This document shows positions 10,084 through 19,903 of a stretch of 64,000 bases of DNA, one piece after another. The notes under the pieces were generated by a model. That model saw nothing but the letters and a program-made list of their open reading frames with translations, was not told the DNA's origin and searched no databases. A program made the position numbers and the translations under genes. Position 1 is the first letter of the stretch. Each line of letters begins with the position of its first letter. Source of the stretch: Neoakkermansia glycaniphila (GTDB taxonomy: Bacteria; Verrucomicrobiota; Verrucomicrobiia; Verrucomicrobiales; Akkermansiaceae); NCBI RefSeq assembly GCF_001683795.1, contig NZ_LIGX01000002.1, positions 124,001-188,000 of the forward strand. The letters are read 5' to 3'.

Positions 10084-10785
10084 TCACTCGGCCTCAACAG
10101 GCCGTTTCAACGCTTCGGCGGCCTTCGCGTGCCCCCGTTCGGCGGCCTTTTTCCACCAGACGCGAGCCTTATCACGGGATCCGTTCGCCCAAAGGGCATT
10201 GCCTACCTCGTACTGCCCTTGCGGAGTCCCGGGATTCTCCATCCACTCAGGAAGCGTATCGCCGACACCGGCGATCGAAAGCCGGAGAGAACGCCCGTCC
10301 ATCACCACCCATTCCACGATATAATCTTCAGCCCCCCACTTCATGAAAGCCACTTTCAGCGTGATCAGCTCCTCGTTCTCCTCCGTCGTATCGATCTTCA
10401 ATTCGCAATTCCGGGCTTCCAGCTCTTCAGCCTCGACCCATGGATTCGCCAGCCCGGATACATCCAGTTCCACTTCCTTCTCCCCATCGAAAAAAACGCC
10501 CCGTGTCAGGATCACATTCGGCACAGCTGTCGGCGAAATCCACGGCTGGCCGTCACACACGGCATAGCCGCATCCCGGCGCTTGTTGTACATCCGCCTTC
10601 GCCACCTGCTTCGCCTCGAAACGCACGCTGCAGCCCCGGGCCAGCGGAATCACCCGTACCAGGGTTTGATCGGCCCGGACCATCGTCATGGGGTCCGCCT
10701 GCTCCGTTCTCCGTTCGGGATGTTCGCCATAGACCGATACCAGGCATCCCGCCCCGGCGACCAGCAGATACACAAGTCTGTTCAC
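10084..10785 (-). CDS. secreted protein with C-terminal Sel1-like repeat
   Basis: 233 residues from a GTG start. An N-terminal hydrophobic segment (residues 4-19) acts as signal peptide. The middle is beta-rich and unassigned, with an unusual number of acidic residues. The last 50 residues contain a Sel1/TPR-like unit (YEVGNALWANGSRDKARVWW, then KKAAERGHAKA), a protein-binding helix pair. An extended -10 (TGATATAGA, about 10793-10801 on the minus strand) sits 7 bases before the GTG. Function unknown; probably a periplasmic scaffold. Confidence 0.65.
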   Translation of the reverse strand: MNRLVYLLVAGAGCLVSVYGEHPERRTEQADPMTMVRADQTLVRVIPLARGCSVRFEAKQVAKADVQQAPGCGYAVCDGQPWISPTAVPNVILTRGVFFDGEKEVELDVSGLANPWVEAEELEARNCELKIDTTEENEELITLKVAFMKWGAEDYIVEWVVMDGRSLRLSIAGVGDTLPEWMENPGTPQGQYEVGNALWANGSRDKARVWWKKAAERGHAKAAEALKRPVEAE

Positions 10786-10903: not shown

Positions 10904-13072
10904 TCATTTGGCATCAGAAGATACCGCCTTGTAAACGGCATCTGCCATCAGGGCATGCCCCGCCGCATTCGGATGCACTTTATCCGGCAAATAGTCGGGA
11001 TGCGGCTTCATCGGCGTGTAAAGATCGACCACCGTACATTTCATCTGGCGGGCTACCTTTTCAATCTGAGGATTGACTTCCTTCTCCACGCGCGCACCGC
11101 TGATGGAATCGTCACCCAGCAAAGAAGGCACCGCCTTGAGGCAATAGATCTTGATATCGGGATTCTCTTTCCGCAAGGCGGCGATGATGGCCTTGTAATC
11201 CTTGTTGAACTCATCCTTGAACTTCCAGTTCTGGGGCTTGGCGTCATTGGTTCCGAGGGCGATCAGCGCAATATCGGCCTGTGCCTGCACCGCTTTCGTG
11301 TATGCGGCTTCGCGAATATAGGGATGATCCCCCTTGGACAGCAGCGTACGCGCACTCACGCCGTAATTTTCCACCGTGTAGCCGGAACCGAGCTTGTCCG
11401 CAAGCAGATTGCTCCATCGCTGGCCGGGCTGCACGCCGTGGCCGAAGGTGATACTGTCCCCAAGGCAGACGATGCGCTGAGGTGCAGGATAACCCGTCGC
11501 ATCCAGAACGAATTTGACGATGACCGCCGGATTCTTCAGGCTGTGGGGAAGATGGTTGCCCGGACCGAGCACGACTTTGATCGGGCCGCCGAGCTTCTTG
11601 TAGCGTTCCGCCAGTACCGCGGAATTTTCCTTAAACGGCACCACGGTATCTTCCGTGCGGGCCACGCAGATCACGGGCACTTTCTCTTTCGCCATCCCCT
11701 TGAGGTTGTCGACGGGATTGCCTCTCCACGCAAGCGCCTGCTCCTCCGTCATGCCGTAGACGGCCAGCAGCCGCTCCCAGTTTTCCTTGGACAACTCTCC
11801 CTTGCCCTTCCCGGCCGGCCAGCTCTTGAAATCGCATACGGGAGCATCCGCATAGATGGCGGATACCCATGCAGGATGCAGAGCCGCCCAATTGAAGGCA
11901 TACAGCCCGCCGCGGCTGAACCCTTCGAGGACAGGACGGCGCGACAGTTCGTAATTTTCGGTCACATGCTTGTAGAAAGCGTCCATCACCTTCATGGCGG
12001 CAGGCGAACCGTACATATTCTGCATATCGATGTAGGCCACGGCAAAACCGTTCTTCAGCAACTCGATATCCGCCTGCGGCTCGTGTCCGAAAAACTCCGT
12101 ACGCCATATCCAGGGATTCCCCTGCGCCGCCTTCTTCGGGAATACGAGCATGGCATTGCGATTGTCGAACTTGAAATCGCTCTTTTCAAAACCGTTCCAG
12201 TCGGACTGCGTCGCTCCGGCATCCTTGTAACGGGGAATACTCGCCACATAACCGGGAATCTGCGGGCGCTGGTGCTTCGTCTTGGTCAGCCATTCGTTCC
12301 GCAGCTGTTCCTGCTTCTTGAAGGCGGCCTGATAGTCGGCACCATCGGGCAGCTTGGCCTTGGCCGGCACTCCTGCCAGCTTGGACAAGCCGTTGCATAC
12401 CGCTTCACCGATGAAACGATGGCCCTCTGTCCCCGGATGCACGCCGTCTCCGGCATAAACGAAACCGGGCTTCGCCTTTTTGGCGTCGGCAATGGCTTTT
12501 TTGACGGCCGGACGGATATCGATCACACTCCAGCCGTTCTTGCGTTGCGAAACAAGCCATTCCCCATAGGCGGAAAGCGTCTTGTCGTACTCATCCTGCG
12601 GTTTGTCGAGCTGGTCGCCCCGGTAGGGAGGAGGAGTCACGAGTATCACGCGCGCACCCGCTGCTTCCGCTTCCTTCTTCATGCGAATGATGCCGTTCTT
12701 GTAGCTCTCGAAACGCCCCGCATCCAGCGGCTTGTAAATACCGTCGTTCATGCCGTAGCAGGCGATCACGAGAGTCGGCTTGAATTCAGTGAGCACGCGG
12801 GCCAGACGGTCATGCAGGCAGGGACGAGGAAACGCACCTCCGGCATGGCCCGGTTCGCTCAGCCCGGACACCGTTTCGCTGGGCACGCACATATTGACTA
12901 TCGTTGCATCGGCATATTGCTTGCTCTGATGCAACCCTTCCGTCACCAATGTCGGCCAGCCGCCGGCATAGGGAATGCTGTCTCCGAGAATGGCCACCCG
13001 TTCTTCCCTGGCAAATGCCACGGAAAGAAAAGCGGTCAACACCCATATCAGGAGGAGAGGTATACGCTTCAT
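10904..13072 (-). CDS. secreted three-module esterase: SGNH / alpha-beta hydrolase / SGNH
   Basis: 722 residues with a signal peptide (cleavage near AFA-RE). Module 1 (about 25-220) is an SGNH hydrolase with ILGDSIPY, YGMNDG and DGVHPG. Module 2 (about 260-520) is an alpha/beta hydrolase with nucleophile elbow GFSRGG, an acid in EDTVVPF and His in GNHLPHS. Module 3 (about 525-720) is a second SGNH domain with CLGDSITFG, LGTNDA and DKVHPN. All three appear to keep catalytic residues. Likely removes acyl groups such as O-acetyl from extracellular glycans, fitting a mucin or polysaccharide degrader; the substrate is inference. A terminator follows. Confidence 0.85.
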   Translation of the reverse strand: MKRIPLLLIWVLTAFLSVAFAREERVAILGDSIPYAGGWPTLVTEGLHQSKQYADATIVNMCVPSETVSGLSEPGHAGGAFPRPCLHDRLARVLTEFKPTLVIACYGMNDGIYKPLDAGRFESYKNGIIRMKKEAEAAGARVILVTPPPYRGDQLDKPQDEYDKTLSAYGEWLVSQRKNGWSVIDIRPAVKKAIADAKKAKPGFVYAGDGVHPGTEGHRFIGEAVCNGLSKLAGVPAKAKLPDGADYQAAFKKQEQLRNEWLTKTKHQRPQIPGYVASIPRYKDAGATQSDWNGFEKSDFKFDNRNAMLVFPKKAAQGNPWIWRTEFFGHEPQADIELLKNGFAVAYIDMQNMYGSPAAMKVMDAFYKHVTENYELSRRPVLEGFSRGGLYAFNWAALHPAWVSAIYADAPVCDFKSWPAGKGKGELSKENWERLLAVYGMTEEQALAWRGNPVDNLKGMAKEKVPVICVARTEDTVVPFKENSAVLAERYKKLGGPIKVVLGPGNHLPHSLKNPAVIVKFVLDATGYPAPQRIVCLGDSITFGHGVQPGQRWSNLLADKLGSGYTVENYGVSARTLLSKGDHPYIREAAYTKAVQAQADIALIALGTNDAKPQNWKFKDEFNKDYKAIIAALRKENPDIKIYCLKAVPSLLGDDSISGARVEKEVNPQIEKVARQMKCTVVDLYTPMKPHPDYLPDKVHPNAAGHALMADAVYKAVSSDAK

Positions 13073-19126: not shown

Positions 19127-19903
19127 TCATCCGCGGCGGCGGCGGCGCAACAGCAAGGCACCGAGGCCGAGCAGGCTCAAGGTCGCTGCTGCCGGTTCGG
19201 GAACGTTGAACGCTTCGTCGGCGCGCCTGCCCTTCAACTTGGCAGCCGTCTCCTGATCCAATGCCGTATTCCAGATGGCAAGATTATCGAACGATGCTCT
19301 CATTGATGTATTGTCCGCAGCATTGCCGCCCAGCGACAAGCTGCTGATGGCACCGATATTCGAATAATTGCCGGAACCCAACAGAGTGCCATCGGCATAA
19401 ACCGACATCGTACCGCTGGAAAACGACAGCACAATACTGCGCCATGTATCCGTTCCGGCAGTACCGGTCAGAGCCGTATTGTAACTGCCAGTCTCGCCGG
19501 CGGCCCCCCAGCCCCATCGGCCCAAAGCCGAAGAAAGAGTCTTCGAACCGTTGAACATGATCAAAGCAGCTCCATCCACATAATTTTTGAGATCGAACGA
19601 CAAGGAAAAATTATTGGCGTTGATACCCTGCAATCCGGAAGCATACAGGCTCGTATTATTGAGCTTCGTCGTCGCCGTTGTCGAAATATAGCCGTCTCCC
19701 GTCATTGAACCGCTCGCGCTGAACGCCTTATAGGCACCGAAGCCCACGCTGGCCGTAGAAGCATTGCCTGTGTAGAAAGTTTGCAGGCTTGTCCCGTTAT
19801 CGAAGTCCCAATAGTACGAAAGATTCTTGTCGTCAATGGACGAAGCTCCGAATACGGGAAGGGCGCTGGCCACAACAGCCAAAATAAATATGTGTTTTTT
19901 CAT
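19127..19903 (-). CDS. LamG-like exported protein with PEP-CTERM sorting tail
   Basis: 258 residues: signal peptide (1-19), a beta-rich concanavalin/LamG-like domain (about 25-225, with YWDFDNG and FDNLAIWNTAL as in LamG repeats), then VPEPAAATLSLLGLGALLL and an arginine run at the extreme end. That tripartite tail is the PEP-CTERM signal, processed by an exosortase and linked to exopolysaccharide-associated surface proteins. It probably binds glycans at the surface. No exosortase is in the window. Confidence 0.85.
   Translation of the reverse strand: MKKHIFILAVVASALPVFGASSIDDKNLSYYWDFDNGTSLQTFYTGNASTASVGFGAYKAFSASGSMTGDGYISTTATTKLNNTSLYASGLQGINANNFSLSFDLKNYVDGAALIMFNGSKTLSSALGRWGWGAAGETGSYNTALTGTAGTDTWRSIVLSFSSGTMSVYADGTLLGSGNYSNIGAISSLSLGGNAADNTSMRASFDNLAIWNTALDQETAAKLKGRRADEAFNVPEPAAATLSLLGLGALLLRRRRRG

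Follow-up and report, generated by a model that had tools for sequence, protein, structure and literature searches.

Carbohydrate esterases that carry more than one catalytic domain on a single chain are already known. Two-domain CE6-CE1 esterases occur in Bacteroides ovatus and Flavobacterium johnsoniae, and the B. ovatus enzyme displays intramolecular synergy (PMC7110780, in excerpt), while Dysgonomonas mossii has an enzyme with two CE1 domains (PMC8040265, in excerpt). In Bifidobacterium bifidum, SiaBb1 is a fusion of an O-acetylesterase and a sialidase, while E. coli encodes its esterase NanS together with the mutarotase NanM in one operon, nanCMS (PMC10017367, in excerpt).

A 64,000-nucleotide stretch of DNA (the window) encodes a chain in which three esterase modules follow one another, namely an SGNH module (S1), an alpha/beta hydrolase (AB) and a second SGNH module (S3) (Table 1). 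This triple esterase resembles the CE6-CE1 enzymes, which pair an acetyl esterase with another esterase, in having several esterase domains per chain. However, those enzymes have two domains and belong to xylan PULs (PMC7110780, in excerpt), whereas the triple has two SGNH modules and one alpha/beta module, and no gene for glycan degradation adjoins its copy in the window. SiaBb1 likewise fuses deacetylation of sialoglycans with another mucin activity, but it joins one esterase to a GH33 sialidase, and the triple has no sialidase domain (PMC10017367, in excerpt). The triple thus differs from described fusions in the families, number and context of its modules. No publication on this protein was found among the titles and abstract beginnings listed from the open-licence PMC literature. 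In a term search, neither PMC11790493 nor PMC10067855 used the word 'esterase' in its main text, and PMC12834350, in the portion available, places the carbohydrate esterases of proteomes in a supplementary table only. The reading favored here, tentatively and at slightly below an even chance, is that the triple is a secreted multi-site O-deacetylase of host glycans, possibly of O-acetylated sialoglycans.

The open reading frame begins with ATG and runs without internal stop. Its continuity, together with five full-length counterparts, rules out a frameshift or an assembly artefact. The combination named in the original prediction as grounds for refutation, modules split in close relatives together with conserved frameshifts here, did not occur: the frame is continuous and kept in six genomes. 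Pfam detects two GDSL/SGNH stretches in the chain, PF13472 (2.2e-47, best over residues 536-708) and PF04311 at residues 88-225. AlphaFold2 modelled all three modules in the full chain (mean pLDDT 90.8, pTM 0.70), and this pTM leaves the placement of the modules relative to one another uncertain. The junction between AB and S3 has almost no linker. Rows of the VIA-align fold comparison cover residues 291-722 (AB and S3) and say nothing on residues 1-290, such that S1 is supported by Pfam, by a profile search against PDB sequences and by the model. The chain is probably exported, judging from the signal-like N-terminus that ends in AFA, and would thereby place at least two esterase domains with intact triads on one exported chain. 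The intact frame, Pfam, the model and the triads bear out the original prediction of three complete esterase modules, in the order SGNH, alpha/beta, SGNH, on one probably secreted chain. The catalytic residues, which it held to be kept in every module, prove nearly invariant in alignments of relatives.

Table 1. Features of the triple-esterase gene (window coordinates)
Feature	Position	Strand	Basis
S1-AB-S3 triple esterase gene, 722 aa	10904..13072	-	ORF reading; full length in 5 further genus genomes
Signal-peptide-like stretch, residues 1-21 (K2 R3, hydrophobic core, AFA)	13010..13072	-	Sequence reading; model helix 4-19
S1 SGNH module, residues 22-275; Ser32, Asn109, Asp209, His212	12248..13009	-	Pfam DUF459/GDSL, PDB profile matches, conservation, model
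AB alpha/beta-hydrolase module, residues 285-531; Ser386 (GFSRG), Asp475, His507/His510	11480..12220	-	Conservation, AB model, fold matches
S3 SGNH module, residues 532-722; Ser540, Asn609, Asp697, His700	10907..11479	-	PF13472, AxeA1 C-terminal part below cut-off, SGNH esterase structures

Across 66 distinct relatives of S1, Ser32, Asn109 and His212 are found in every sequence and Asp209 in 65, the remaining one having a gap. The SGNH signature, with its GDS serine, block III Asn and block V Asp-x-x-His, is therefore present in all 66 rows (the Asp in 65). The glycine column of block II, the placement of which is uncertain, holds Cys62 in the window protein, with Gly in 52 of the 66 rows, Ala in 10, Cys in 2 and Ser in 2. 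A profile over S1 (A3), compared with PDB sequences, matches 7br2, 7ddy (AlAXEase) and the acetyl xylan esterase chains 3w7v and 4oao.

In S3, Ser540, Asn609, Asp697 and His700 are conserved in 14 of 14 relatives, as are the SGNH signature and the block II glycine. Its fold matches SGNH esterases in VIA-align at Z values of about 21-23, with the carbohydrate acetylesterase Est24, an aryl esterase and an acyltransferase tied at the top and AlAXEase, PbeAcXE and a CE2 enzyme listed further down. The best named NCBIfam model for S3 is AxeA1 (NF042968; 3.1e-48), whose C-terminal SGNH part S3 resembles. Neither S1 nor AB matches the N-terminal part of AxeA1 in the NCBIfam comparison, and membership of AxeA1 is ruled out by a score of 164 bits, over the C-terminal part only, against an equivalog cut-off of 700. 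Membership of the SASA family is also ruled out, with no PF03629 match in the 722-residue protein at E up to 1. The sialate O-acetylesterases NanS and EstA belong to SASA (PF03629). AB is fused to SASA-type acetylesterase domains at two loci, in either order (L142:7893-9683 and L160:6849-8741), but the triple itself lacks PF03629, so its likeness to these O-deacetylases is one of context only.

These matches also suit a dietary plant-glycan deacetylase that acts on xylan, mannan or pectin fragments as AxeA1 and other acetylxylan esterases do, which we regard as an unlikely identity for the triple. Besides the AxeA1 match of S3 and the presence of AlAXEase, PbeAcXE, 3w7v and 4oao among the structural or sequence relatives of S3 or S1, this reading draws on the action of known fused CE6-CE1 esterases on xylan (PMC7110780, in excerpt). 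The low AxeA1 score argues against it, as do the genes around relatives of the triple. Xylan-degrading families were not seen among 39 scanned neighbour proteins, and the tandem glycoside hydrolases at Akkermansia copies are GH110-like, GH63-like and GH95.

Several phyla have members of the alpha/beta family to which AB belongs, and no Pfam model fits it well. The Pfam signal of AB, PF00326 at 1.6e-4, is weak: its 21.6 bits fall short of the gathering score (22.6), which six of its relatives pass (at loci L139, L142, L147, L150, L159 and L160). Modelled alone, AB reaches pLDDT 91.4 and pTM 0.90. Ser386 and Asp475 are conserved in 95 of 95 sequences and the two candidates for the catalytic histidine, His507 and His510, in 94, the exception being a distant protein that is 33% identical to AB. 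The features of an alpha/beta hydrolase are all present, from the GxSxG elbow, the Asp past a late strand and the His in the C-terminal region to the fold, which VIA-align matches to alpha/beta hydrolases at Z values of about 20-22 over 207-234 residues. AB has conserved motifs of its own, with the consensus WIWR.EFFGH.P, DAPVCDFKSWP and HHPHS, the last of which reads NHLPHS in the window protein. The triples of genomes G061, G060 and G059 (L067, L068 and L069) lie on long branches in which EFFGH becomes QFFDY, and they may have undergone a shift in specificity.

In fold, AB comes nearest to S9 acylaminoacyl peptidases, S-formylglutathione hydrolase/esterase D and BTAxe1, with nearly tied Z values and 11-19% identity. 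AB thus has its alpha/beta fold in common with esterase D/S-formylglutathione hydrolase and with the catalytic domains of S9 acyl peptidases, yet identity to them is low and the AB motifs are distinct. This near tie suits a chain of mixed activities, in which true sugar deacetylation is left to one or two modules while another, most likely AB, cuts a different ester (a feruloyl, methyl or lactone, for example) or an amide. A BD-FAE-type gene adjoins one S1-AB gene (L117), and CE6-CE1 fusions combine acetyl and feruloyl activities (PMC7110780, in excerpt), which both point in the same direction. However, AB is repeatedly joined to SGNH or SASA acetylesterase domains. It is also just 247 residues long and lacks a beta-propeller, whereas S9 peptidases carry one. 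We regard a mixed chain as unlikely, to the same degree as the plant-glycan reading.

The original prediction described the order of the three modules as uncommon, and the genomes examined support this. Within the genus of the window genome, 17 of 76 genomes have any match to the triple at 1e-20, and in six of them a single frame encodes the whole triple (the window genome G000, G097, G066, G061, G060 and G059), the five other triples being 51-59% identical to the window protein. In 386 genomes of the order, an even draw from a larger group, three-module coverage occurs among the matches listed in these same six genomes only. A wider set of named loci (the best 80 of 488) contains three triples, from an uncultured Akkermansia, Akkermansiaceae UBA7331 and the A. 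muciniphila isolate Mouse_2. In the data examined, S3 is joined to S1-AB only in Akkermansia.

AB is found far more widely with other partners. The best 80 of 488 loci hold 83 AB proteins, of which 67 have AB fused to an SGNH-superfamily esterase domain (S1 in 55, S1 and S3 in 3, S3 in 1, another GDSL domain in 6 and SASA in 2) and 16 have no detected SGNH partner, in counts biased toward S1-AB by the use of the full-length triple as query. S1-AB is the commonest form (51 of the 83) and is hosted by Verrucomicrobiota, Planctomycetota and Paenibacillaceae, while the reverse order AB-S1 accounts for 4 proteins and AB-S3 for a single one. Within the genus, S1-AB occurs in seven genomes, the triple in six, and both together in none. 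AB-S3 occurs in three, one of which is the window genome, where it is a second gene, and the copy in G036 is cut short in S3. The AB modules of the triples form one clade in the AB tree (support 100/99), although branching within that clade and the position of AB-S3 are weakly supported. The base of the S3 tree is unresolved, with long branches, such that S3 may have come from a stand-alone S3 gene or from AB-S3.

Loss of modules is also evident. In G004, G036 and G067 (loci L034, L038 and L075) an S1 gene shares three neighbours with the S1-AB gene of G016, G062, G063, G064, G065 and G081, and AB has been deleted from it such that approximately the last 33-45 AB residues remain; in G036 (L038) S1 itself is also divided between two frames. 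Close relatives thus do have the modules apart, as S1-AB, AB-S3, S1 alone and S3 alone, but through module gain and loss, and the window frame is intact. The varied forms and the losses indicate that modules are gained and lost, with the triple as the solution of one lineage. The same fluidity, with modules single or reordered in sister species and AB lost from S1-AB in three species, would fit a fusion without a special role, in which chance brought S3 to the other modules and each of the three works on its own, on esters unrelated to one another. Given that the triple is kept at 51-59% identity in five other genomes with its triads intact, and that the AB modules of the triples are a single clade, we consider such a chance fusion very unlikely.

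The favored reading, deacetylation of host glycans, draws on genomic context outside Akkermansia. After merging of identical proteins, 21 of 26 close S1-AB proteins were kept for scoring, with at least 5 kb of flank on one side and 2 kb on the other. Seven of these 21 loci have at least two of the NanM-like, NanA-like and NanE-like genes nearby, corresponding to 7 of 14 loci outside Akkermansia and 0 of 7 inside. S1-AB is divergent from the nan genes in all seven (L087, L095 of Haloferula sp. BvORR071, L177 (= L090), L178, L179 (= L089), L180 and L185), and wherever the called ORFs are free of overlap, NanM lies 37 bp to about 1.5 kb away. In Pfam, the NanM-like cluster protein scores above the gathering threshold for N-acetylneuraminate epimerase, and cluster proteins best match models for N-acetylneuraminate lyase, N-acyl-glucosamine 2-epimerase and mutarotase, all below NCBIfam cut-offs. 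A position of S1-AB beside a NanM-like gene makes sense in light of the NanS and NanM operon of E. coli (PMC10017367, in excerpt).

The S1-AB proteins of the seven loci are 58-90% identical to one another. One genus, g18, accounts for at least five of the loci (genomes G124, G169, G198, G371 and G379), and the S1-AB of L087 shares 90% identity with one of the g18 proteins. Therefore, the seven linkages are not seven independent events and may represent few. Linkage at 7 or more of 21 loci by chance, at an assumed rate of 1-2% per locus, has a probability of about 1e-9 to 1e-7. This estimate overstates the case, since it uses assumed rates and treats as independent seven linked loci of which at least five share one genus. 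No nan genes were found at the 34 distant S1-AB loci scored (of 43), at loci with AB but neither S1 nor S3 (16 scored of 26 close, 2 of 11 distant), at AB-S1 (2 scored of 4), AB-S3 (1 of 3) or S3-AB (0 of 1) loci, at the scored triples (5 of 6) or anywhere in the window.

Within Akkermansia, sialic acid genes are common away from the esterase. A NanA-NanE-like pair is kept in all four genomes checked, and neither a NanM-like nor an MFS gene was found beside it in these four. NanA-like genes and BNR_2 sialidase-family genes each occur in 75 of the 76 genomes of the genus. Co-occurrence of the triple with these two nearly universal genes is uninformative and was set aside. That only 17 of the 76 genomes match the triple, yet nearly all have sialidase-family and NanA-like genes, indicates that the enzyme is dispensable for sialic acid use.

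The surroundings of some Akkermansia copies do include glycoside hydrolases. In G097 the triple is followed after 12 bp, on its own strand, by a gene for a GH110-like protein with GLAA-B barrel domains, and a gene for a GH63/MGH1-like hydrolase follows the triples of G059 and G060. In the window genome, the AB-S3 paralogue of 482 residues (L031:2556-4004; C2:221555-223003) overlaps, as called, a GH95 gene on the same strand. The GH95 and GH110 families target mucin glycan ends that are fucosylated or of blood-group-B type. Among the triples, neighbours were scanned for the window genome, G097, G066, G060 and G059. Most of the 39 neighbour proteins scanned around relatives have no evident role with sugars; UvrC is the scanned neighbour of the G066 triple, and the S1-AB gene of G064 stands next to one for a beta-ketoacyl synthase. 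The window triple lies between a prolyl-tRNA synthetase gene upstream and, downstream, an ORF with no Pfam match and an M50 protease gene, and these neighbours include no glycan-degrading gene and give no clue to the substrate. The downstream ORF (10084-10785, same strand) encodes 233 residues. Elsewhere in the window, positions 19127-19903 encode a PEP-CTERM protein with a laminin-G-like domain.

The link to mucin and sialic acid in the original prediction is supported only indirectly. It gains from the nan-type clusters beside two-module relatives outside Akkermansia and from the GH110-like, GH63-like and GH95 tandem genes at some Akkermansia copies, but no nan gene lies at the scored Akkermansia copies or in the window. 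A deacetylase for host glycans is suggested by the conserved triads, the fold relatives, the fusions with SGNH and SASA domains, the nan linkage, the NanA-NanE-like and sialidase-family genes kept by Akkermansia and the tandem hydrolase genes. It is weakened by the lack of nan genes at the Akkermansia copies and at the distant S1-AB loci, by the few independent linkages, by the rarity of the enzyme in the genus, by the many neighbours with no evident sugar role, by the acetylxylan esterase as best model for S3 and by SASA-family genes (three open frames) in the window genome. Under this reading, each module would remove O-acetyl esters from host glycans, chiefly mucin O-glycans, and thereby give glycosidases and sialidases access. 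The usual SGNH or alpha/beta mechanism would apply, with a Ser nucleophile, an acyl-enzyme and release by water. The S1-AB core would most likely derive from, or work as, an O-acetylesterase for sialic acid catabolism in other Verrucomicrobiota, and the AxeA1-related S3 would bring one more site or sugar.

A bolder proposal would make AB an unrecognised alpha/beta family of sialate O-acetylesterases and S1-AB the Verrucomicrobia counterpart of NanS/EstA. The triple would then clear several positions (4-, 7- and 9-, for example) of one sialic acid or mucin glycan, as a missing deacetylation step of mucin breakdown by Akkermansia. We regard this combination as rather improbable. The triple and its S1-AB relatives are concrete candidate deacetylases. 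Should they prove active, they would reveal how O-acetylated mucin is opened by Akkermansia and provide a function for an alpha/beta family of several phyla that lacks a well-fitting Pfam model.

Two minor observations concern the relatives of AB. In a Verrucomicrobiales MAG, an N-terminal sulfatase is fused to S1-AB in a protein of 1187 residues (L111:6147-9710), the gene for which adjoins a SASA-domain gene. The AB tree places the loci of five MAG records titled Akkermansia muciniphila (L090, L092, L109, L140 and L146) with other Verrucomicrobiota, and the titles look misassigned; the genome search places the L090 locus in g18, another genus of the family.
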